DNA of 64,000 nt from Thermosynechococcus vestitus BP-1. Lineage in GTDB: Bacteria; Cyanobacteriota; Cyanobacteriia; Thermosynechococcales; Thermosynechococcaceae. Under the pieces are notes generated by a model. That model was not told the origin of the DNA. It did not search any database and saw only the letters and a program-made list of their open reading frames with translations. Below are positions 3,179 to 21,864 of this stretch, piece by piece. Made by a program: the position numbers and the translations under genes. Each line of letters opens with the position of its first letter. Position 1 is the first letter of the stretch. Location of the stretch: assembly GCF_000011345.1 (NCBI RefSeq), contig NC_004113.1, positions 2,399,501 through 2,463,500 on the forward strand. Direction: 5' to 3'.

Positions 3179-3264
3179 GATTTGGGAGCCGCTCTTGTCA
3201 AGACTCATAGGCATCCGTAGTCATTGAAGCCCGTTCCATGAGCGCCAACTTTTTGATCCAGACC

Positions 3265-3870
3265 ATGAGTAATCCCCGTGAAAACATCATCTGGCACCAG
3301 GCCACGGTGACTCGTGCTCGCCGCGAACAACTGAACGGCCACAAATCCTGTGTCCTGTGGTTTACCGGTTTGTCCGGCGCCGGCAAATCGACACTCGCCC
3401 ATGCGGTGGAGGAACGATTACATCAGCTCGGCTACCGCACCTTCGTTCTGGATGGTGACAACGTCCGACACGGCCTTTGTTCCGATCTGGGTTTCACCGA
3501 ATCCGACCGCAAGGAAAATATCCGCCGTATCGGCGAAGTCGCTAAGTTGATGATGGAAGCGGGGTTGATTGTCATGACCGCTTTCATCAGCCCCTTTCGG
3601 GCCGACCGCGAGGCTGTCCGCAACCGGATGCCACACGGGGATTTTCTGGAAATCTATTGCCAGGCCAGCCTGGAAGTCTGCGAGGCGCGCGATGTCAAAG
3701 GCCTCTACAAAAGGGCCCGAGCCGGAGAAATCAAGAATTACACTGGCATCGATTCCCCCTATGAACCGCCGCTGAAACCCGAGCTGATTGTCAATACAGA
3801 ATGTCTGACGCTGGAAGAATCGGTAGGCGCCGTCCTGCGCATGCTCCAGGAGCGAGGGGTGGTGCAATGA
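3265..3870 (+). CDS. cysC: Adenylylsulfate (APS) kinase
   Basis: This enzyme phosphorylates APS at the 3' position with ATP to make PAPS, the sulfate donor. The P-loop GLSGAGKST is near residue 36. DGDNVRHGL and the family stretch [15 protein letters not shown] follow, with FISPFRADR after them. From the ATG at 3265 the protein has 201 residues, normal for a stand-alone CysC. An ATG at 3238 would add nine residues and neither start has a clear Shine-Dalgarno site. It is the first intact gene of the island. No sulfurylase gene is present, so APS must come from the host. With the sulfotransferase at 5733 it forms a PAPS supply-and-use pair. That suggests sulfation of a glycan rather than assimilation. 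Confidence 0.93.
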
Positions 3871-3997: not shown

Positions 3998-4519
3998 GTG
4001 CCTGCCTTCCTCAGTGAATCGCTGATGCGTGTACGTATGGCGTTTCTCCGTCTTCGTTTGGGCTACCTTGGCCCTGGTGCACACATTTTTGGAAGATGCA
4101 GGCTGACTTATCCCTCTCACATCAGGATCGGTGCCGATACTTCGATTGGCGTGCACGTCTCACTGCATGCTTCATCCCAAGGCTTCATAGTTATTGGCGA
4201 GCGTTGCGCCATTGCTGCCTACACCCGGATCATCACACCCACCCACGACTCGTCTGTTCTTCCCATCACCGCTGTCGGCATCAACAAATTGGTGTCCATC
4301 GATGACCATGTCTGGATTGGAACTGGCGCGATCATACTTCCCGGTGTCAAAATCGGTAGCCGCAGCATCGTCGCTGCAGGAGCCGTGGTGAACAGGGATG
4401 TTCCCGAAGATGTTTTGGTGGCTGGAGTGCCGGCACGCATTGTGAAAAATCTTCCGCCAGCAGAGGTGCGTTTTGGGAACGGTCTGCGGGTAAAGGAAAG
4501 TAAAAGGGCAAGTTCATGA
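3998..4519 (+). CDS. Left-handed beta-helix O-acetyltransferase (hexapeptide repeat)
   Basis: This is probably an acyl-CoA-dependent O-acetyltransferase acting on a sugar in the cytoplasm, of the WbbJ/maltose acetyltransferase type. From about residue 40 it shows hexapeptide-style repeats (IRIGADTSIG, IVIGERCAIA, VWIGTGAIILPGVKIG, SIVAAGAVV). It has the catalytic-type TPTHD segment and the usual C-terminal VPARIVKN. The frame opens with GTG at 3998; ATG at 4025 would give a protein nine residues shorter. The last bases overlap the next gene as ATGA, showing translational coupling. The acceptor sugar cannot be read from the sequence. Confidence 0.85.
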   Translation: MPAFLSESLMRVRMAFLRLRLGYLGPGAHIFGRCRLTYPSHIRIGADTSIGVHVSLHASSQGFIVIGERCAIAAYTRIITPTHDSSVLPITAVGINKLVSIDDHVWIGTGAIILPGVKIGSRSIVAAGAVVNRDVPEDVLVAGVPARIVKNLPPAEVRFGNGLRVKESKRASS

Positions 4520-5055
4520 AACTCCATCTTGGTTGCGGCAAACGCTTCATCCCTGGGTTTGTCCATATCCATACGATCGGTTATCCGCACGTGGATCACG
4601 TCGCCACGATCGACAATCTTTCCTTCATTCCAGATGGATCGGTGGATCTGATCTACAACTGCCATGTGCTCGAGCATTTCAAACGCCGGGAAGTGCCGCG
4701 TGTGCTGAAGGAATGGCATCGGTTGCTGCGGCCAGGGGGCGTTCTGAGGATCTCTGTGCCGGGTTTCGCCCAGATTTGCGAAGTCTATAGGCGCTTCGGC
4801 AAGCTCGACCTCGTCATCGGCCCGCTGTTCGGCCGGCAGGATTACCTCTACAACATCCATTACAACGTCTTCGACTTCGATTCGCTTTTGCGCTACCTCA
4901 TCGAAGCAGGATTCGTCAACATCCGGCGTTATGACTGGCGGCAGACGGAGCACGCCCATGTGGACGACTTCTCCCAAGCCTACATCCCTCACATGGATAA
5001 AGAAAACGGGATTTTGATCAGCTTGAATGTCGAATGTGAGAAGCCTTTGCTATGA
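4516..5055 (+). CDS. SAM-dependent methyltransferase (COG4627-like)
   Basis: This is a class I methyltransferase of the short type common in O-antigen and exopolysaccharide clusters. Motif I (LHLGCGKRF) is at the N-terminus. DLIYNCHVLEHF and RLLRPGGVLRISVPGF then form the post-I and motif III strands. Its 179 residues are normal for the group. Both ends overlap neighbours by ATGA (4516-4519 and 5052-5055), so it is translated as part of a coupled chain with the acetyltransferase and the FkbM-type enzyme. The substrate is presumably a sugar or glycan terminus, which is inference from context. Confidence 0.8.
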   Translation: MKLHLGCGKRFIPGFVHIHTIGYPHVDHVATIDNLSFIPDGSVDLIYNCHVLEHFKRREVPRVLKEWHRLLRPGGVLRISVPGFAQICEVYRRFGKLDLVIGPLFGRQDYLYNIHYNVFDFDSLLRYLIEAGFVNIRRYDWRQTEHAHVDDFSQAYIPHMDKENGILISLNVECEKPLL

Positions 5056-5729
5056 GTTTCTTCGCCCGCCTCGCTAATCGTCTCGGCTACCTTTACAAGC
5101 TCCATATCTTTCGTGATCCCTTTCTTCGCGAGGTTCGCCGCTGGTTCAGGGACCGTGGAGACCAAACGCTGCGCCTCGACTATCCCTTGACCAGTGATAG
5201 CCTGGTGATTGATGTAGGGGCGTACCGTGGTGACTTTGCAAACGCGATTTACGAACAATTCGGCTGTAGGGTGCTGCTGTTCGAGCCAGTGGCTGAGTTC
5301 TATGCGTATTGTGTCGAGAGATTTAGAGCGATCCCGCGCATCGAGGTGTATGGATATGGTCTGGGCACAAACGATGCATTGCTGCCAATCGAAGTGAAGG
5401 GCGATGGTTCCTCCTTTATATCCTTCGTGCAGCCTCACACGCCACAACGTCAGGCTTGCATTAAGCGTGCAGACCGTGTTTTTGAAGAATTGGCACTCAA
5501 GCAAATCGACCTGATGAAAATAAACATCGAAGGCGGAGAATACGACCTTTTGGAGCTGCTGATTTCTTCCGGCTGGATCAGGCGTATCCGCTTTCTGCAG
5601 ATTCAGTTCCACAACTTTTTTCCTGAGGCTCCTGAGCGCCGGCAGGCCATCCGCGCCAAACTGGGAGCAAGCCACGAAGAAATGTGGAATTATGAATTTG
5701 TGTGGGAAAGTTGGGTATTGAGAAGCTAA
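5052..5729 (+). CDS. FkbM family methyltransferase
   Basis: This is an FkbM-type SAM methyltransferase, a family that mostly O-methylates sugars or polyketides. The SAM-binding strand is LVIDVGAYRGDFA (around residue 50), then VLLFEPVAEFY. The family signature IDLMKINIEGGEYDLLELL lies near residues 155-173. Its 225 residues are typical. The start overlaps the preceding stop (ATGA), and three bases separate its stop from the sulfotransferase start. A second methyltransferase in the same run suggests the glycan carries more than one methyl group or differently methylated residues. Confidence 0.85.
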   Translation: MSFFARLANRLGYLYKLHIFRDPFLREVRRWFRDRGDQTLRLDYPLTSDSLVIDVGAYRGDFANAIYEQFGCRVLLFEPVAEFYAYCVERFRAIPRIEVYGYGLGTNDALLPIEVKGDGSSFISFVQPHTPQRQACIKRADRVFEELALKQIDLMKINIEGGEYDLLELLISSGWIRRIRFLQIQFHNFFPEAPERRQAIRAKLGASHEEMWNYEFVWESWVLRS

Positions 5730-5732
5730 AAA

Positions 5733-6680
5733 ATGAAGATTGCGCATATCGGTCTTCCCAAGACTGCCAGTACGTTTTTGCAAAAGCATTACTTTTCGAA
5801 GCTTCCATTTTGTTTTTATTCGACGCAATCACCCTATACCTGGCCTATTGAATTCAGGTTCATTTGGGCCACTCACCTTTTTTGGTATGAAGATTTGCTT
5901 AACAAAAATGCTCTAAAACTCCGCGACGAAAGAATCCATCATTTCAGAGTCGCGGTGAGTAAAGAGGTGGAGGGGTGGAAGAAAGGGGTAAGGTGCTGGG
6001 CTCGAACGATTGAGTGTGAGTCCATATTGCTGAGCGCCGAAGGACTATGCGGCTTGTCAGCGGAGATGACTGACGTGCATATGGAACTCTTGCGCTGCGC
6101 AGGTGTGGAGAAAGCCATGTTTGTGATTCGCAGACAAGACAAGTATGCGCTCTCTTTGTGGCGGCAGTTCATTTTGCGCGAAGACCGATTCAGTCGTTTT
6201 GTGAATTTCGCCACGTTATTCGGGTGTAATAACGATAATCCCATCGTCGATCTTGATTGGTCTCGCTATATTGAGGCTCTCCACGCCGTATTCGGCCGGG
6301 AGAATGTGCTCGTTCTGCCCTACGAGATGATGATCGAGGCGCCTGATTTGTTTTTCTTCAGATTTGAATCTTTTGCCGAGCTTGAACATGGCCAGTCGCG
6401 ACCCGATATGGGGATAAGGGAGAACTTGTCATCTCGCGATGAGACCTATCGTGGTTATGTGATGGACGATTGGCTTGTTTTCGATCGGTTACCATTGTTG
6501 AGAAGGGCATGGCGCAGATTGGCGCGTAGCATCCCATTTATTAAAGATATGGGTAGCATAATTCATGAAACCAGGGTCTCTGATTCCATGCTCGAACTTT
6601 TGCTGACGCGTTATCGAGACTCTAATGCGCGGTTGCAAGAGAAAATCGACGTTGATCTAAGGGATTATGGCTATTTGTGA
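5733..6680 (+). CDS. PAPS-dependent sulfotransferase family protein
   Basis: The N-terminus IAHIGLPKTASTFLQKHYF matches the 5'-phosphosulfate loop of sulfotransferases (a G-x-P-K-x-x-x-T pattern). A segment around residue 190 (ENVLVLPYEMMIEAPDLFF) resembles the region after the 3'-phosphate site. Its 315 residues fit the bacterial carbohydrate sulfotransferase group. It lies in the same coupled run as APS kinase, which makes its co-substrate, and the following fucosyltransferase gene starts 14 bases before its stop. I infer O-sulfation of the island's glycan. The weak overall conservation leaves the acceptor open. Confidence 0.75.
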   Translation: MKIAHIGLPKTASTFLQKHYFSKLPFCFYSTQSPYTWPIEFRFIWATHLFWYEDLLNKNALKLRDERIHHFRVAVSKEVEGWKKGVRCWARTIECESILLSAEGLCGLSAEMTDVHMELLRCAGVEKAMFVIRRQDKYALSLWRQFILREDRFSRFVNFATLFGCNNDNPIVDLDWSRYIEALHAVFGRENVLVLPYEMMIEAPDLFFFRFESFAELEHGQSRPDMGIRENLSSRDETYRGYVMDDWLVFDRLPLLRRAWRRLARSIPFIKDMGSIIHETRVSDSMLELLLTRYRDSNARLQEKIDVDLRDYGYL

Positions 6681-7704
6681 GAGCGGGGCTTTACCCTCAC
6701 ACGTCGGTGCTCTCTCCTATAGTGGAGGGGCTGCATCTAGTTTTTTCGGGCGGCGTAACGCCGATGGTCTGAATGACAAGTGGTTAGCCTTGCGTGATGC
6801 TTTCCGAGCTGCCGGAGGTGACCTTTTAGCCATCGAGGATGCCAGAAGTGCGGCTCTCGACTTCGTCATCCATGTCAATGCTCATCGACTTCGGCACGAC
6901 GTGCCGGCGTTTGTGATTCTGGCGGAATCCGAGTTTATACATCCCCCTAATGTGGATTGGCGGATGCTGCAACAGTACAAGGGAATTTTTACTTGGATGC
7001 CTGATCTCGTCCGCCGGGGAATTGGAACCGAGATCTGCCTGGCCCACCCTCTGGGCGCGGGCGTGGTCGATGGCTATCAAGAGCGACCCCAGCTTCTGGT
7101 AATGATTGCCTCCAACAAGGCTTTGCCCGTTTGGCGTCCTGCGGTCGATCTCTATCGGGAACGCGTGCGAGCAATTCGCTGGTTTGAAAAGCACGCCCCC
7201 CAGGCTTTTGCGCTCTACGGACATGACTGGGATAAATCCCCACGTTTGCCGACACCCCTGGGCGGCATTGTCCATGGGGTCGAGTTTGTGCTCCCCTGGC
7301 GGCTGCAATGGTTTCCCTCGTGGAAAGGCGTGATCCCCAGCAAGCGGGAGGTTTTGCGGCACGCGCGTTTTTCCCTGTGTTATGAGAACGTTCGCGGCTT
7401 GCGCGGCTATATTACTGAAAAAATCTTCGACGCCTTTTGTGCTGGTAACGTGCCGGTTTACTGGGGTGCAGAGGATATTACCGACTATATACCAGCAGAC
7501 TGCTTCATCGACCGCAGGGCATTTGGCGATTACGCCGATCTTTACCGTTACCTCACGAGTATGCCGGAGACTCGCTATATCCAATACCAGCAGGCCATTT
7601 GCGATTTTCTGGTCTCTCCCGCAGCCAAACGCTTTTCCAGTGAAATCTTCGCCACCACCATTGTCGGTAAGGTGCTCGACACTTTGGGGCGCCGCGATGA
7701 GTAA
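6667..7704 (+). CDS. Glycosyltransferase family 10 (alpha-1,3/1,4-fucosyltransferase)
   Basis: This enzyme transfers fucose from GDP-fucose to a glycan. The diagnostic GT10 block lies at about residues 235-285. It consists of FSLCYENVRG, GYITEKIFDAF, GNVPVYWGA, then DYIPADCFIDRR. Upstream segments (DFVIHVNAH, AESEFI, HPLG) also fit. Its 345 residues are within the bacterial range. The ATG at 6667 lies inside the end of the sulfotransferase gene (14-base overlap) and the stop overlaps the next start. H. pylori FucT, a member of this family, builds Lewis antigens. Linkage and acceptor here are unknown. Confidence 0.88.
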   Translation: MAICESGALPSHVGALSYSGGAASSFFGRRNADGLNDKWLALRDAFRAAGGDLLAIEDARSAALDFVIHVNAHRLRHDVPAFVILAESEFIHPPNVDWRMLQQYKGIFTWMPDLVRRGIGTEICLAHPLGAGVVDGYQERPQLLVMIASNKALPVWRPAVDLYRERVRAIRWFEKHAPQAFALYGHDWDKSPRLPTPLGGIVHGVEFVLPWRLQWFPSWKGVIPSKREVLRHARFSLCYENVRGLRGYITEKIFDAFCAGNVPVYWGAEDITDYIPADCFIDRRAFGDYADLYRYLTSMPETRYIQYQQAICDFLVSPAAKRFSSEIFATTIVGKVLDTLGRRDE

Positions 7705-8125
7705 GCATTGGGATGCAACGACCCTGGGCCTGTTCCTTCTGTCCTTTAGCATTCCGGCGCGGATGACAGCTGTGATGGAAACTGTCGTTGTGCAATACAC
7801 CTATGCCTATTATTTTTATTTTCAGCGCATCGCAGGTAGTACGGACGTGAGCGTGCAAGCTGAAGCGACATCAAGTATAACCAACGCCCTCTTGCCACTC
7901 TATTGGGTTTGTGGCAGCTTTCTGTGTCTTGCGGCAGCCCAACAGACGATTTTGAGCATCTATCGGGCGCGAGGCATGCAGCCCACTTGCTTCTCCACGA
8001 AACGGGGTGTTTTTGCTGGGGCCGTCTTGCTTGGGGTCTTTTTCCTGTTATTCTTCCTCCGGGCAGGCCGTAGTGTCGCGAGCTCTTTGGCCATCATCTT
8101 GCTCACTGCAGGCCTAACAAAATAG
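7697..8125 (+). CDS. Small multi-pass membrane protein, unknown
   Basis: This 142-residue protein starts with an ATG at 7697, overlapping the GT10 stop by eight bases. It shows about four hydrophobic segments: near residues 8-40 (rich in Tyr and Phe at its end), 60-85, 100-120 and 125-140. No motif is recognised. The same frame is open further upstream, to 7382, but that part is the shadow of the GT10 gene. It could be a polymer export accessory, a small polymerase-like protein or a remnant of a larger membrane protein. Its place between two fucosyltransferases suggests a role in the same pathway. Confidence 0.55.
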   Translation: MSKHWDATTLGLFLLSFSIPARMTAVMETVVVQYTYAYYFYFQRIAGSTDVSVQAEATSSITNALLPLYWVCGSFLCLAAAQQTILSIYRARGMQPTCFSTKRGVFAGAVLLGVFFLLFFLRAGRSVASSLAIILLTAGLTK

Positions 8126-8194
8126 GTAGCCTTTCAGCATCTTCGTACTGCGGCGTTTTTCCACACCCTGCTTCGTCAGAAATTGAGCTGAGCC

Positions 8195-9076
8195 ATGATC
8201 ATCGTTCGTCTCTGTGGCGGTTTGGGCAATCAGATGTTTCAATATGCGGCAGGGCTGGCCGCTGCCCATCGCATCGGAAGTGAAGTCAAGTTCGATACTC
8301 ATTGGTTTGACGCCACGTGCTTGCACCAAGGCCTCGAGTTGCGGCGCGTCTTCGGGTTAGAACTGCCCGAGCCTTCAAGCAAAGACCTTCGAAAAGTGTT
8401 GGGAGCGTGTGTGCATCCTGCCGTAAGGCGTTTGTTGTCGCGCCGTTTGTTGCGCGCGCTGCGGCCAAAGTCGCTGGTCATCCAGCCCCATTTCCATTAC
8501 TGGACAGGTTTTGAGCATCTGACGGACAATGTGTATCTGGAGGGCTACTGGCAAAGCGAGCGATATTTTTCGAACATTGCTGACATCATTCGGCAACAGT
8601 TCCGTTTCGTTGAGCCCCTCGACCCCCACAATGCTGCGCTAATGGATGAAATGCAATCCGGCGTTAGCGTCTCACTGCACATCCGCCGGGGAGATTACTT
8701 CAACAATCCACAGATGAGGCGTGTCCATGGCGTAGACTTGTCCGAATATTACCCAGCTGCTGTTGCCACGATGATTGAAAAAACTAATGCTGAGCGCTTC
8801 TACGTGTTTTCCGACGATCCCCAATGGGTTCTGGAGCATCTTAAGTTGCCCGTTTCTTACACAGTGGTTGACCACAATCGTGGTGCGGCAAGTTATCGGG
8901 ATATGCAACTAATGAGTGCGTGTCGGCATCATATCATTGCCAACAGCACTTTCAGTTGGTGGGGGGCGTGGCTGAATCCGCGTCCAGACAAAGTCGTCAT
9001 TGCGCCCAGACACTGGTTCAATGTCGATGTCTTTGACACACGAGACCTGTATTGTCCTGAATGGATTGTGTTGTGA
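8195..9076 (+). CDS. Glycosyltransferase family 11 (alpha-1,2-fucosyltransferase)
   Basis: This enzyme transfers fucose from GDP-fucose in alpha-1,2 linkage, usually onto a galactose. It begins with the family signature GGLGNQMFQYAAG. The GDP-fucose binding motif HIRRGDY lies near residue 160, then FYVFSDDPQWV, and the C-terminal NSTFSWWGAWL completes the GT11 pattern. Its 293 residues are typical. It is the only island gene with a sizeable gap upstream (69 bp), in which I see no clear promoter. The following GT2 start overlaps it by 16 bases. Together with the GT10 enzyme it would give a doubly fucosylated, Lewis-like structure (inference). Confidence 0.92.
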   Translation: MIIVRLCGGLGNQMFQYAAGLAAAHRIGSEVKFDTHWFDATCLHQGLELRRVFGLELPEPSSKDLRKVLGACVHPAVRRLLSRRLLRALRPKSLVIQPHFHYWTGFEHLTDNVYLEGYWQSERYFSNIADIIRQQFRFVEPLDPHNAALMDEMQSGVSVSLHIRRGDYFNNPQMRRVHGVDLSEYYPAAVATMIEKTNAERFYVFSDDPQWVLEHLKLPVSYTVVDHNRGAASYRDMQLMSACRHHIIANSTFSWWGAWLNPRPDKVVIAPRHWFNVDVFDTRDLYCPEWIVL

Positions 9077-10131
9077 CTTGCAATCATCAAAGCAACAGGC
9101 CGCTGCTATCGGTGTTGATGCCGGTATTCAATGCCGAAGCCTATGTGGGGGAAGCGATCGAGTCGATTCTTGGGCAGAGCTTTCGGGATTTCGAATTCAT
9201 CATCATCGATGACGGTTCTACGGATAATAGCCTTTCCGTCCTGAAGCGTTATGCTGTGCAAGATGCTCGTATCCGCTTGATTAGCCGTGAAAACCGAGGG
9301 TTGGTTGCGACGCTCAATGAAGGGATCGCCCTTGCTCGCGGCGAGTGGATTGCCCGCATGGATGCGGATGACGTGGCTATGCCCAATCGTTTTATAGTAC
9401 AGCTTGCCGCGCTCGAACGTGAGAGAGTTGATTTTTGCGGTGGCGCTATCCAGTGTTTCGGCGCCTTGCGCAGCGTGTGCTTCTACCCGCTGACCCATGA
9501 AGCTTGCGAGGTTCACTTGCTGTTTGGTGTTCCCTTTGGCCACCCGACCGTTATAGGGCGGCATTCGGCGTTTGCTGAACTGGGTTACGATCCAGACTAT
9601 CCGTATGCAGAGGATTACGAACTGTGGCAGCGTGCCTGGGGGAGAGGCTACAAATTCGTCAATGTGCCCGAGGTCGTCTTGCGCTACCGCGTGCATGCAG
9701 GCCAGGTTTCAGCGCGAAAAAAGGCCGAGCAACAGAACACGGCGGATGCTGTGCGCAAGCGTCATTGGCGCGCACTCTTCCCTAGGATGGATGATAAGGA
9801 AATCGATTACATCATCAAAATGTTGCACGATGGTAAGGGTGAAACCTCGCGCCTACTGCCATGCCTTCTCAGTCTGGTGAGCCACTACTCTGGCGAGGCT
9901 CGGCAGGTGCTTTTGCTTGATAGCTATGGAGCTTTTCGTGAACTGGCAGGTTCCGACAGGTCTGCGTGGCGTAACTGGCTAACTCTCAAAAAGCAAGCTT
10001 GTAGCGATGCAGTTGAAGTCAAGGATGTTTTTCGTACAGCAGTTTTATGGGGATTTTCAATCTTTAATATAACAAAGGGTAGTATCAGATATCAACTTTT
10101 GCAAAAAATTAAATCTATTGTGTTGAAATGA
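9061..10131 (+). CDS. Glycosyltransferase family 2
   Basis: This is a GT-A inverting glycosyltransferase. The N-terminal domain has LSVLMPVFNAEAYV, IIIDDGSTDNS and ARMDADDVAMPNRF, where DAD is the metal-binding DXD-like motif. YAEDYELWQRA near residue 185 is the usual acceptor-site ED motif. The C-terminal hundred residues are unassigned. The ATG at 9061 is inside the end of the GT11 gene. A start a few codons later is also possible, since homology begins at about residue 14. Sugar donor and acceptor are unknown. It would build the backbone that the fucosyl-, sulfo- and methyltransferases decorate. Confidence 0.88.
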   Translation: MDCVVTCNHQSNRPLLSVLMPVFNAEAYVGEAIESILGQSFRDFEFIIIDDGSTDNSLSVLKRYAVQDARIRLISRENRGLVATLNEGIALARGEWIARMDADDVAMPNRFIVQLAALERERVDFCGGAIQCFGALRSVCFYPLTHEACEVHLLFGVPFGHPTVIGRHSAFAELGYDPDYPYAEDYELWQRAWGRGYKFVNVPEVVLRYRVHAGQVSARKKAEQQNTADAVRKRHWRALFPRMDDKEIDYIIKMLHDGKGETSRLLPCLLSLVSHYSGEARQVLLLDSYGAFRELAGSDRSAWRNWLTLKKQACSDAVEVKDVFRTAVLWGFSIFNITKGSIRYQLLQKIKSIVLK

Positions 10132-10139
10132 TCTAAAAT

Positions 10140-11075
10140 ATGATATCGGTAGTAATTCCTCTCTTCAACAAAGCGCCACATATTGTCAGAGCGGTGGAAA
10201 GTGTTCTGGAGCAAAGCAGTCCAGCGGATGAGATCATTGTGGTGGACGATGGATCGACTGACGGTGGTGGCGAGCTGTTGTTACCGTATGTTGCGAAACA
10301 TGGTGTTCGGCTGATTCGTCAGGAGAATGCTGGCGTCAGTGTTGCGCGTAATCATGGTGTTAATTTGGCGGCCAGTGATTACGTGGCTTTTCTCGATGCC
10401 GACGATTTCTGGTTACCTAATCACATTGCAACGCTTCGTAGGTTGATTGACAATTACCCTGAAGCGTCATTGTTTAGTACAGCGTTGATCATTGAGCGCG
10501 ATGGCAGGCAGTGGCGCAGCAAAAGTACTTATTCTGATGGTTGGGAAGGAGTGGTGCAAGATTTTTTTACTGAATATTTGAGGAGGTTTGCTCTGGTGAG
10601 CTCTACTACATCGTGTGTCCGAAAGAAAGATTTTTGCAGTATTGGTGGGTTTCCCGTGGGTGTAAAATATGGCGAGGATTTCATTTGCTGGATGAAGATG
10701 GCTTTGTTCTATCGAGTTGCCCATGCTGAGGTGGTAACGGCAGTTTACTGTCTAGACGCGGTAAATCGCACTGACCAGCTGCAGGAGACTGATGTACTCG
10801 CACCTTTGCAATTCATAGCTAAACTGTTACAAAGTAATGAGCTGGATAATGCACAAAGGGTGGGGCTGGCACAGTTGTTCGACCACATCAGCTTTTCTAC
10901 TGGAGCGAGGTTTCGCATCAATAGTAATTTGAATGGGGTTAATGCCATTCGAAATTTGTCATGGGAAATGGGACACTATAGAGTCAGCTTGCTAATGTCT
11001 GCCTTACGTTTTACACCTAGCCTGCTGTTGCAGGCTGCAAAGAGATTTAGATATCGACAGGTGTCTGTCGTTTGA
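10140..11075 (+). CDS. Glycosyltransferase family 2
   Basis: This is a second GT-A glycosyltransferase: MISVVIPLFNKAPHI at the start, IIVVDDGSTDGG, NAGVSVARNHG, then FLDADDFW, with KYGEDFICWMKMA as the acceptor-site motif. Its 311 residues are normal. It starts eight bases after the previous gene and is the last intact gene of the island. By eye its second half is more A+T-rich than the first island genes, so the island may be mosaic. Its stop is followed within 25 bases by the decayed asparagine synthetase fragment. Confidence 0.88.
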   Translation: MISVVIPLFNKAPHIVRAVESVLEQSSPADEIIVVDDGSTDGGGELLLPYVAKHGVRLIRQENAGVSVARNHGVNLAASDYVAFLDADDFWLPNHIATLRRLIDNYPEASLFSTALIIERDGRQWRSKSTYSDGWEGVVQDFFTEYLRRFALVSSTTSCVRKKDFCSIGGFPVGVKYGEDFICWMKMALFYRVAHAEVVTAVYCLDAVNRTDQLQETDVLAPLQFIAKLLQSNELDNAQRVGLAQLFDHISFSTGARFRINSNLNGVNAIRNLSWEMGHYRVSLLMSALRFTPSLLLQAAKRFRYRQVSVV

Positions 11076-12306: not shown

Positions 12307-12326
12307 CCCCGTCCTTTTAGGACGGC
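12307..12326. repeat. Left-end hairpin of the IS element
   Basis: CCGTCCT (12309-12315) and AGGACGG (12319-12325) form a seven-base stem with a three-base loop. Such subterminal hairpins are what TnpA recognises in this family. The tnpA stop codon lies in the loop and first stem base. The same hairpin occurs in inverse orientation at 31349-31365. Confidence 0.75.
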
Positions 12327-12715
12327 TTTTTTTGATTTCTAATGTATTCCTTAAGCACCTCTAACGGTGCTCCTCCAACAGATGCCGCAAAATAACTAGG
12401 GCTCCAAAGTGATTCTTCATGGGGTTTTGGTAGTGCAGCTTTTCCATATCGACGACTAGATACGCCTTTAAGCGGATTTACAATCTGCGAAACAGAAAGT
12501 TTAGGAGGGTACTCGATTAGCGCATGGACATGGTCTTCTTCGCCGTTAAATTCAAGAACCTGGAAATCCATCTTCATGGCAACTTCTCGAAACGATTTCT
12601 CGATCAGCTCTAATCCCTCAGCGCTAAGGACCGGCCGGCGACACTTAGTCACGCATACCAAATGAATCTTTAGGTCCGTAACACTGTGTCTCCCTTTACG
12701 AAGATGACTTGACAT
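12317..12715 (-). CDS. tnpA: IS200/IS605 transposase TnpA (Y1 HUH)
   Basis: This single-strand DNA transposase cuts and joins the IS ends at subterminal hairpins. The HUH metal motif is HVH (His62, His64, in DHVHALI) and the catalytic tyrosine is Tyr124 in LKEYIRNQ. Its 132 residues match the usual size. It is divergent from tnpB with a 51-bp space that must hold both promoters. The product ends inside the left-end hairpin, which links translation of the last codons to the recognition structure. No frameshift is seen, so it is probably active. Confidence 0.93.
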   Translation of the reverse strand: MSSHLRKGRHSVTDLKIHLVCVTKCRRPVLSAEGLELIEKSFREVAMKMDFQVLEFNGEEDHVHALIEYPPKLSVSQIVNPLKGVSSRRYGKAALPKPHEESLWSPSYFAASVGGAPLEVLKEYIRNQKKPS

Positions 12716-12766
12716 TGCCTGTAGACCAACCTATAATCTAGCTACAGACCAATTATAGCACAACCA

Positions 12767-13945
12767 ATGAAAGCTAGATATAGATATCGTTTCTATCTCA
12801 CAGACCAACAACGACAACGCCTAGCTCAGTTGTTTGGCTGTGTCCGTGTGGTATGGAACGACGCACTGGCAATTTGTAAACAATCTGATTCATTGCCAAA
12901 AACTAGTGAATTGCAAAAGCTAGTAATTACCCAAGCAAAGAAAACACCAGAGCGGCAATGGCTGTCTGATGTTTCTAATGTCCCCTTACAGCAGTCTGTT
13001 GCCGATTTAGGAGTTGCCTATAAAAACTTCTTCGATTCAATTAAAGGTAGGCGAAAAGGCAAGAAGATCAACCCTCCTAGATTTAAAAAGAAGACAGAAA
13101 GACAATCAGCCAGATTTACCACCTATGGATTTTCAATTAAAGGCGAAGAAGTTTATCTGGCGAAGATTGGTAACATCAGACCAATTTGGTCAAGACAGCT
13201 TCCTTCTGAACCAAGCTCAGTTACGGTGATTAAAGATGCTGCAAATCGATACTTTCTCAGTTTTGTGGTCGAGATCAACCCAGTTGATCAACCTGCAAGT
13301 AATCCTTCTATCGGCATTGATTTGGGAATTAAAGCGTTTGCTACTTTAAGTACGGGCGAAAAGATTGATGGCCCTGATTATTCGAAGCTAGACAAAAAGA
13401 TCAGGCGAAAACAACGCAAAGTGGCCCGTCAAGTTAAAGGAAGCAAACGACGCGAGAAAACAAGACTGCAAATCGCTAAGCTTCATAGTCGGATTTCAGA
13501 TATTCGCAGGGATTTCTTGCATAAATTGTCTACCCGCGTGGTTATCGAGAGCCAAGTGATCACGCTGGAAGACTTGAATGTCTCTGGAATGGTGAAGAAC
13601 CGCAAACTCGCTAGAGCAATTAGCTTGCAAGGTTGGCGAGAATTCAGGGTTTTAGTTGAGGCTAAGTGCAAAAAACTAAACCGTGAGTTCATTGTCATTG
13701 ATCGATGGGAGCCAACCAGTCAGACTTGCTCAAAATGCGGTTTTAAATGGGGCAAAATCGATCTATCCGTTCGCTCTGTTGTATGCATAAACTGCGGCGC
13801 AGAGCATGATAGAGACGAAAATGCCGCAAGAAACATAGAGAAAGTCGGGATAGGGCATTGCCACGACTATAAATGGACGCAGAGGGGGAGTAAGACTACT
13901 TCGGTAGCATCACCCGATGAAGCGTCAAGAATCATCGCACTTTAG
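12767..13945 (+). CDS. tnpB: RNA-guided nuclease TnpB of the IS605 element
   Basis: TnpB is the RuvC nuclease that IS605 elements use, with an omega-RNA from their right end, to cut donor DNA and so keep the element (established for ISDra2). An OrfB N-terminal helix-turn-helix opens with YRYRFYLTDQQRQRLAQLFG. RuvC Asp is in GIDLGIKAF (about 185), Glu in TLEDLNVSG (about 268), and the last Asp in HDRDENAARN (about 350). A four-cysteine zinc ribbon lies between (CSKC and CINC). With 392 residues and all three acidic residues present, it should be active. The 3' part of the gene overlaps the expected omega-RNA region. Confidence 0.93.
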   Translation: MKARYRYRFYLTDQQRQRLAQLFGCVRVVWNDALAICKQSDSLPKTSELQKLVITQAKKTPERQWLSDVSNVPLQQSVADLGVAYKNFFDSIKGRRKGKKINPPRFKKKTERQSARFTTYGFSIKGEEVYLAKIGNIRPIWSRQLPSEPSSVTVIKDAANRYFLSFVVEINPVDQPASNPSIGIDLGIKAFATLSTGEKIDGPDYSKLDKKIRRKQRKVARQVKGSKRREKTRLQIAKLHSRISDIRRDFLHKLSTRVVIESQVITLEDLNVSGMVKNRKLARAISLQGWREFRVLVEAKCKKLNREFIVIDRWEPTSQTCSKCGFKWGKIDLSVRSVVCINCGAEHDRDENAARNIEKVGIGHCHDYKWTQRGSKTTSVASPDEASRIIAL

Positions 13946-21150: not shown

Positions 21151-21864
21151 GTGGCGGAGCTGCCAAGCAAGGCTCAGTCAATTAATCCCGTCCATCAAGC
21201 AATGACAAAGGCACACACCCCTGAAGATGTTTGGCGCTTATTAGGGGAGCTATTAGAAGCTCAAAAGGAAACCGAACGCCGCTTTCAAGAAACGGAACGT
21301 CGCTTTCAAGAAACGGAGCGCCGCTTTCAAGAAACGGATCGGCGATTTCAAGAAACGGATCGGCGATTTCAGGAGACTGACCGCCGTTTCCAACAAACGG
21401 AGCGATTGCTGCGGGAAGAGGCTCGTCAACTCAACCAGCAACTGGGGAAACTGGGCAATCGCCTTGGAGAATTTGTAGAGTGGCAGGTACGACCGGCGGT
21501 ACTGCGTTTATTTCAAAGTCGAGGGATTGCCGTCTCTCAACTTTACAGCGATGTCATTCTCCAAGATGGCAACGAGAGTTTAGAAGTTGATCTGCTGGTG
21601 GTCAATACAGATGAAGCGGTTCTCGTCGAGGTAAAAACGAAACTGGGCCAAGGAGATGTGGATGAGCATCTGGAGCGCATTGCCAAATTTCGTCGTTTGG
21701 CTCACCAGTACCGTGGCACTAAACTCTTGGGAGCGGTGGCGGGGATGATTGTGCCGCCTGAGGTGGCTCGCTATGCCTATCGGCAAGGCTTGTTTGTGCT
21801 GGCGCAGTCGGGGGATGGGGTGACGATTCTCAACGACCCGCAGTTTCAGCCCCGTGCATGGTAG
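21151..21864 (+). CDS. Coiled-coil protein with PD-(D/E)XK nuclease-like domain
   Basis: The N-terminal third is an uninterrupted coiled coil made of near-identical heptads (consensus ETERRFQ, six exact-length copies at residues 40-81). The C-terminal domain has LYSDVILQDG, LEVDLLVVN and VLVEVKTKL, a D...E-x-K pattern of PD-(D/E)XK nucleases, as in DUF3782-like cyanobacterial families. A GTG at 21151 opens the frame; ATG 21202 is an alternative 17 codons in. Such proteins are abundant in cyanobacteria and their role is unknown. It is not next to any methylase. The repeat tract could change length by slippage without breaking the frame. Confidence 0.65.
   Translation: MAELPSKAQSINPVHQAMTKAHTPEDVWRLLGELLEAQKETERRFQETERRFQETERRFQETDRRFQETDRRFQETDRRFQQTERLLREEARQLNQQLGKLGNRLGEFVEWQVRPAVLRLFQSRGIAVSQLYSDVILQDGNESLEVDLLVVNTDEAVLVEVKTKLGQGDVDEHLERIAKFRRLAHQYRGTKLLGAVAGMIVPPEVARYAYRQGLFVLAQSGDGVTILNDPQFQPRAW
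21268..21393 (+). repeat. Six tandem 21-bp coding repeats
   Basis: There are six consecutive 21-bp units with consensus GAAACGGAACGCCGCTTTCAA, each encoding one heptad. The units differ mainly at third positions, with two forms (ETERRFQ and ETDRRFQ). A partial seventh unit follows. Confidence 0.9.

Follow-up and report, generated by a model that had tools for sequence, protein, structure and literature searches.

Two fucosyltransferase genes lie side by side at positions 6667 to 9076 of the analyzed stretch of Thermosynechococcus vestitus BP-1 (here called the window, 64,000 nucleotides, positions 2399501-2463500 of a genome consisting of a single contig of 2593857 bases). They appear to belong to a transferred O-antigen or capsule cassette, which would be fed by GDP-fucose and would place two fucoses on a galactose-beta1,3-N-acetylhexosamine (Gal-beta1,3-HexNAc) unit, giving a blood-group-like branch of the Lewis b type on a surface sugar chain; we put the probability of this reading at about 0.6. 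The encoded proteins belong to glycosyltransferase families 10 (GT10) and 11 (GT11), and the pair looks like an old inherited cassette shared with environmental bacteria rather than a phototroph oddity. The enzyme families are already known, and the history of the cassette is the new part. The question of why a hot-spring cyanobacterium has Lewis enzymes thereby becomes one that can be tested, namely whether an O-antigen cassette changed its donor after transfer.

The two transferases

Both open reading frames (ORFs) are intact on the forward strand, exactly as a preliminary description of this DNA had placed them, and both score above their Pfam cut-offs. The GT10 protein matches PF00852 with E 8.1e-12 and 45.6 bits (cut-off 23.9), over profile positions 52-136 of 182 only, which is the C-terminal part. 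Its residues 223-297 align with the Helicobacter pylori fucosyltransferase FucT (phmmer, E 1.4e-10), and in the pairwise alignment the stretch YEN..GLRGYITEKI keeps FucT residues Y246, T248, E249, and K250, which we take to bind GDP-fucose. In an alignment of 39 sequences, composed of the window and 38 of the 80 related loci described below and also used for folding, residues E87, R166, E240, N241, Y248, T250, E251, and K252 are invariant; the catalytic base of H. pylori FucT is Glu E95, for which the invariant E87 is a candidate counterpart. A profile of 39 GT10s still aligned with solved enzymes only in the C-terminal part.

The AlphaFold2 model of the GT10 (mean predicted local distance difference test score, pLDDT, 93.6) has a predicted GT-B fold over the whole chain. 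The top Foldseek match is H. pylori FucT (E 1.1e-9), and the top two solved entries in VIA-align are H. pylori FucT (PDB ID 2nzw, 264 residues, Z 17.4) and human FUT9 (Z 17.3). Other GT-B enzymes follow within 1 Z unit, which is a tie, so that the fold supports the GT10 family without proving it. We assign positions 6667-7704 to GT10 at family level, with transfer of fucose to O3/O4 of a HexNAc as the predicted reaction.

The GT11 protein matches PF01531 with E 4.2e-33 and 115 bits (cut-off 23.9), and its HxRRGD and NSxFSWWxAWL blocks are retained in 8/8 aligned genus sequences; a PDB search with it gave no match at E 0.1. The signature blocks that the preliminary description had read in both proteins are present, the GT10 having the Y-x-T-E-K block. 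The sequences support both proteins as credible GDP-deoxyhexose transferases.

A single GT10 and two GT11s occur in the genome at E 0.001. A characterized alpha1,2-fucosyltransferase, Te2FT, comes from T. elongatus BP-1; according to PMC12723683 its activity is restricted to beta1,3 galactosides, and Lewis a is listed there among the acceptors it does not use. Since the genome has only two GT11s, the window GT11 must be Te2FT or its 97% identical sister.

Relatives and co-inheritance of the pair

Related loci were taken as the best 80 of 380 obtained when named genomes were searched with GT10s of the genus, with up to 6 kb of DNA on each side and less at contig ends (L-numbers denote fetched loci, with coordinates counted within the locus, and G-numbers denote genus genomes). 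In 31 of the 80, mostly in Proteobacteria, the GT10 has a GT11 scoring at least 60 bits nearby, a count that includes two contigs of one strain and the genus itself. A flippase (Wzx) of the same type is found in 29/80 (threshold 30 bits), and ColD-profile matches are found in 36/80 (150 bits), both profiles having been built from these same loci. Strong ColD matches (500 bits) occur in 13 of the 31 GT11-bearing loci, 9 of them being among the 11 profile-building sequences. Wzx stands between GT10 and GT11 in 12/31 paired loci, and a frequent gene order is gmd, colC, colD, an acetyl- or methyltransferase, GT10, Wzx, GT11, an epimerase, a family 2 glycosyltransferase (GT2), and a Wzy-like gene. 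Judged from record titles, the nearest GT10 kin are mostly environmental bacteria, and many of their loci carry colitose genes.

The phylogenetic check proposed in the preliminary description was run as a tree for the GT10, the GT11 being compared by distances. Eight genus rows group in the GT10 tree (support 96/65) and are joined in turn by Spirobacillus (97/49), Pelagibacteraceae (100/100), and the Mariprofundus locus L042 (99/89); L049, L040, and L044 were left out. All of these fall in a clade of 35 rows, most of whose members outside the genus are Pseudomonadota; 26 of the 35 rows have a GT11 nearby, versus 10 of the 50 others. GT10 and GT11 distances correlate with r 0.68 over 35 loci (0/5000 permutations as high) and with r 0.69 over the 29 loci left without the other genus loci; duplicates (L049, L040) and loci with a GT10 or GT11 below 100 bits, e.g., L088, were left out. 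It is supported that the two genes tend to be co-inherited and, together with two credible transferases and a supply of GDP-L-fucose, this makes a doubly fucosylated product plausible.

Surprise at meeting both families in one phototroph, as first expressed for this locus, was overstated. In a phylum sample of 291 genomes, PF00852 is found in 56, PF01531 in 44, and both in 20 (8.5 expected; one-sided Fisher test, 1.2e-5), or in 17/288 when the three genus genomes are taken out (1.5e-4), in a test where the genomes are not independent and some GT11 matches are weak or in very long ORFs. The two genes are within 7 kb of each other in 12 of the 20 genomes, 9 of these 12, by hand count, being outside the genus. 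Among the papers listed by searches on cyanobacterial fucosyltransferases and on colitose with GT10 or GT11, none dealt with such a cassette in its title or the opening of its abstract. The comparison leaves about 30 paired transferase loci in other bacteria open to assay.

Donor sugar and flippase remnant

A GDP-mannose 4,6-dehydratase gene, gmd, is located at L010:8395-9474 (566 bits, cut-off 415). The adjoining protein (L010:7451-8392) has GDP-L-fucose synthases as its top solved matches (E 6e-67) and reaches 296 bits with the NCBIfam fucose synthase model, below the cut-off of 500, so that its identification rests on the solved-structure matches. By homology, the genome appears able to make GDP-L-fucose, which makes this donor available, and GDP-fucose is very probably the donor used.

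ColD, which marks the colitose loci, gave three matches in this genome, only 31 to 34% identical to the L042 ColD, and none in the window operon; the ColD of Escherichia coli O55 and those of three relatives share 63 to 71% identity. The L042 protein aligns from end to end with a solved ColD (E 3e-190). Across the genus, DegT-family matches occur in 11/11 genomes with 27 to 36% identity, none near the ColD level. The O55 ColD and the three inspected relatives' ColDs carry SHH at the aminotransferase Lys position; aminotransferases have the pyridoxal phosphate-binding Lys where ColD has His. The "fucose synthases" of four relatives are 54 to 59% identical to the O55 ColC, that of this genome 32%. 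In one strain (L048/L049), gmd is accompanied by a gene resembling fucose synthases (37.5% to ColC) and the fetched DNA contains no ColD, which gives the cluster the look of a fucose-based counterpart. The related GT11 WbgN is reported to accept three donors, GDP-Col, GDP-Fuc, and GDP-L-Gal (PMC11987014); on this basis, changing the donor may require no new enzyme.

Between GT10 and GT11, the ORF at 7697-8125 matches a profile built from the Wzx proteins of 15 related loci (E 1.2e-12 when a small number of segments was searched) and, in a genome search, shows 33% identity over 80 residues (E 1.1e-5). It corresponds to the middle part of Wzx, which has about 483 residues in relatives where read out, and it is all that the window cluster retains of this gene. 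Wzx is present as pieces in several frames in L034 and as one short piece in L035. A single-protein search of the 11 genus genomes found only remnants (G000, G003), the reach of such a search being limited by the fast divergence of Wzx. Export must use another system, and another flippase is assumed.

Proposed pathway

GT10 and GT11 would be the two capping enzymes of the operon, and it is likely that they act on one glycan. GT2a, the first of two downstream GT2 enzymes, may attach a beta1,3-linked galactose (or related hexose) to N-acetylglucosamine (GlcNAc) or N-acetylgalactosamine. The GT11 would then attach L-fucose alpha1,2 to that galactose, an activity published for the enzyme of this species and expected for this copy, and the GT10 would add the second fucose to the neighboring HexNAc. 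The GT11 should act before the GT10, as Te2FT is listed as not accepting Lewis a. This would yield a branch of the Lewis b type, which the neighboring acetyl-, methyl-, and sulfotransferases might modify further. GDP-L-fucose would presumably be made by Gmd and the fucose synthase, whose genes lie in another part of the genome. The operon would descend from a proteobacterial-type Wzx/Wzy O-antigen or capsule cluster, of a type that in many relatives seems to run on GDP-colitose (3-deoxy-fucose).

The preliminary description had compared the pair with enzymes making Lewis Y and Lewis b structures. Double fucosylation survives as plausible, and the preference of Te2FT for Gal-beta1,3 acceptors favors Lewis b over Lewis Y. 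A type 1 acceptor is more likely, and the full Lewis b topology falls a little short of an even chance. When the genome is compared with the O55 glycosyltransferase whose gene adjoins wzx, GT2a ranks first (38%, E 8e-32), followed by a chimeric sister gene (34%, 2e-28) and the second downstream enzyme, GT2b (27%, 6e-13). If this O55 protein is WbgO, described as the beta1,3-galactosyltransferase of O55 (PMC12552311), GT2a would make Gal-beta1,3-GlcNAc, the acceptor favored by Te2FT. A DxDD motif has been described as a hallmark of beta1,3 Gal/Glc transferases (PMC4202792); it was rejected as a discriminator for GT2a, being present in GT2a, GT2b, and both O55 glycosyltransferases alike.

A broader proposal, which we regard as speculative and on the unlikely side, would see GT10-(Wzx)-GT11-GT2 as a widespread co-inherited cassette for Lewis b-type double caps that switches between colitose and fucose according to the GDP-sugar genes of its host. 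Thermosynechococcus would have lost the colitose genes and the flippase, the caps would have become fucose, and the neighboring sulfotransferase would sulfate them.

Gene content of the operon

Ten consecutive forward-strand features between 3238 and 11075, nine intact genes and the flippase remnant, were read from the ORF list, Pfam, and NCBIfam. The sulfotransferase candidate and the GT10 overlap by 14 bases and the GT11 and GT2a by 16 bases, and these overlaps suggest that the region is probably one glycan operon. The features are as follows.

3238..3870, + strand: cysC-type adenylylsulfate (APS) kinase, for supply of 3'-phosphoadenylylsulfate (PAPS); PF01583 E 1e-68, TIGR00455 above cut-off
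3998..4519, + strand: left-handed beta-helix (hexapeptide) acetyltransferase; PF00132 E 5.6e-12, top NCBIfam match a WcaF-family model, below cut-off
4516..5055, + strand: class I S-adenosylmethionine (SAM) methyltransferase; PF08241 E 2.6e-10
5052..5729, + strand: FkbM-family methyltransferase; PF05050 E 3e-11, TIGR01444 above cut-off
5733..6680, + strand: probable sulfotransferase; PKTASTFLQ stretch close to the N terminus, distant homology
6667..7704, + strand: GT10 fucosyltransferase, 345 amino acids; PF00852 and predicted structure
7697..8125, + strand: Wzx-type flippase gene remnant, middle part only; Wzx profile
8195..9076, + strand: GT11 alpha-1,2-fucosyltransferase, 293 amino acids, one of two genomic copies; PF01531
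8195..9377, + strand: duplicated segment, all of GT11 and the first 317 bases of GT2a; 98.6% over 1183 bases to L009:11327-12509
9061..10131, + strand: GT2a, GT2 glycosyltransferase, possible beta-1,3-hexosyltransferase; PF00535 E 1.2e-33
10140..11075, + strand: GT2b, GT2 glycosyltransferase; PF00535 E 2e-32

The protein at 5733-6680 is probably a sulfotransferase, the weakest call of the operon. It has no Pfam match at E 0.1 and no PDB match at E 1, and it is 36% identical to a homologue in L042 that matches PF00685 at E 6e-4, below the Pfam cut-off. A PDB search with this homologue gave four weak matches, one of them a sulfotransferase (E 0.59). The model of the window protein is of low confidence (pLDDT 55.7), and its top Foldseek matches are sulfotransferases (best E 1.5e-3). 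The L042 homologue sits directly before the GT10, as in the window, the only such locus among the 80. Homologues occur in 4 of 386 phylum genomes, including the window genome, the other three at E 4e-8 to 9e-6. A homologue of the FkbM methyltransferase adjoins the GT10 in L030, L032, and L035.

Base composition was considered as an argument for transfer and discarded, the difference between the operon (51.6% G+C) and window positions 16001-64000 (54.2%) being too small. Just downstream of the operon, a transposase pair resembling IS200/IS605 tnpA and tnpB was seen by eye at 12317-13945. Further along, at 21151-21864, about seven near-identical short RRFQETE-like repeats precede a nuclease-like C-terminal part (by eye).

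The pair within the genus and the second GT11

Among the 11 genus genomes searched, GT10 is found in 7 and GT11 in 8, and all seven GT10-bearing genomes have a locus in which the next feature 3' of the GT10 is either GT11 itself or a Wzx remnant followed by GT11. In G003, the GT10 (L034:10818-11856) is broken up among several reading frames. The loci are of two kinds, type A, flanked by a membrane-protein pair and by dus and pflB (as read), and type B, the type of the window. An IS4-family transposase is located within locus A of G002 (L031:8158-9141).

The second GT11 of the genome is encoded at L009:11628-12509. The DNA common to both copies, 1183 bases with 17 differences, begins exactly at the GT11 start codon and ends within GT2a. 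Six of the 17 differences cluster in 20 bases (8438-8457), altering residues 82-85, 87, and 88, as if derived from a third source. The adjacent GT2 (L009:10735-11652) is chimeric. Its residues 4-109 are 99% like the window GT2a, whereas the remainder is 38% identical to GT2a, 73 to 76% identical to the same-locus GT2 of four other genus loci, and 49% in two more. The chimera suggests that DNA of locus B, in the window, was copied into locus A, and the gene is apparently the product of a recombination event that joined these two glycan loci. Also near the second GT11, a reverse-transcriptase/maturase-like gene is seemingly interrupted by a transposase-like gene (L009:16074-18606, by eye).

Selection on both transferases is purifying where measurable. 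The ratio of nonsynonymous to synonymous substitutions (dN/dS, NG86) is 0.19 to 0.22 for three locus-A GT10 pairs and 0.10 to 0.13 for three GT11 pairs.

Weighing the alternatives

Several points weigh against the proposed reading. GT11 occurs alone in the genus loci L009 and L037 and GT10 alone in L036; in 49 of the 80 related loci, including the closest relatives from outside the genus (L038, L039), the fetched DNA shows no GT11, and the distance correlation still contains shared species history. The window GT10 and its nearest kin are saturated at synonymous sites and give no dN/dS value, the GT11 pair of the window and L035 has a dS of 3.1, and the ratio between the two near-identical GT11 copies is 0.51 to 0.66. 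The linkage made by the GT10 is not readable from its sequence. The equation of the O55 protein beside wzx with WbgO is our assumption from gene order. Finally, an alpha1,2-fucosyltransferase of T. elongatus has also been used for 2'-fucosyllactose, made on a beta1,4 acceptor (PMC8381501, PMC11199141), so beta1,3 specificity is at most a preference.

Phage-driven surface variation, in which fucose caps alter a cyanophage receptor, is a role compatible with the biochemistry proposed here and a possible, if doubtful, one. Lipopolysaccharide is a receptor of some cyanophages (reviewed in PMC4390846), the loci are present in some genomes and absent from others, and DNA of one locus has replaced part of the other, but nothing ties the genes to phages. 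A single-protein pattern scan of viral contigs, which reaches close kin only, found no GT10 relative; a viral origin of the GT10 was set aside on this one scan, which makes for a weak rejection.

Less likely still, the two enzymes serve different glycans and their adjacency is merely the history of one transferred cluster. The single-gene loci of the genus and the lack of a GT11 in the majority of GT10 loci outside it (49 of 80) speak for this view, but the adjacency in 7/7 GT10-bearing genus genomes and the correlated divergence argue for a common glycan.

A decaying relic operon, whose GT10 and GT11 make little or nothing, would account for the Wzx remnants in the window, L034, and L035 and for the split L034 GT10. 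It is improbable, as all nine remaining genes of the operon have open reading frames, the selection that could be measured is purifying, and a GT11 from this species is reported to be active (PMC12723683).

A native donor other than fucose, such as colitose, L-galactose, or another GDP-6-deoxy- or L-hexose, would fit the colitose operons in which much of the clade is embedded and the three donors taken by WbgN (PMC11987014). With gmd and a fucose synthase present in the genome and no ColD found there, we consider it slightly more improbable than decay.

Helicobacter-like mimicry, in which the glycan would imitate Lewis antigens of animals, was raised in the preliminary description and is hardly credible: it draws on the same two CAZy families and on a few host-linked relatives (the Daphnia parasite Spirobacillus, a Bathymodiolus symbiont, and a Gastranaerophilales bacterium), but the kin are mostly environmental by title with a good part in colitose operons, the GT10 sequence match to H. 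pylori FucT is confined to the C-terminal part, and Thermosynechococcus is a thermophilic free-living genus.

Comparison with known systems

The proposed fucose-capping cassette is closest, on the enzyme side, to Te2FT itself, which has been published as a biocatalyst on human-type acceptors, the parts of the source cited here mentioning neither a native glycan nor a GT10 partner (PMC12723683). The operon offers a native context and a GT10 partner for this enzyme, which is already used in milk-sugar synthesis. The Lewis system of H. pylori (GT10 FucT and GT11 FutC) has the same two families and the same GDP-fucose donor; it differs in that the window GT10 is similar only C-terminally, the window acceptor is expected to be type 1, and no host is known.

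E. coli O55, with the GT11 colitosyltransferase WbgN, ColC, and ColD, resembles the operon in its GT11 (33% identity) and in glycosyltransferases like GT2a (37%) and GT2b (42% over 107 residues). WbgN is described to use a type 1 acceptor (PMC11987014), as expected for the window. No GT10 is annotated in the fetched O55 stretch, and ColC and ColD are present there, whereas no ColD was found in the window genome. The synechan cluster (xss) of Synechocystis is also a cyanobacterial glycan cluster with sulfotransferases, of which the window has one candidate, but it has Wzx, Wzy, and polysaccharide co-polymerase (PCP) genes, and synechan is composed of rhamnose, mannose, galactose, and glucose with sulfate (PMC8205485).

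The proposed product has a counterpart in the polysaccharides of Vibrio cholerae O139 and Aeromonas trota, which share a tetrasaccharide in which Gal and GlcNAc carry two terminal colitoses (PMC3210612). This tetrasaccharide is the 3-deoxy analogue of the product proposed for the window, with colitose replacing fucose. Its linkages presumably match those of the proposed branch.

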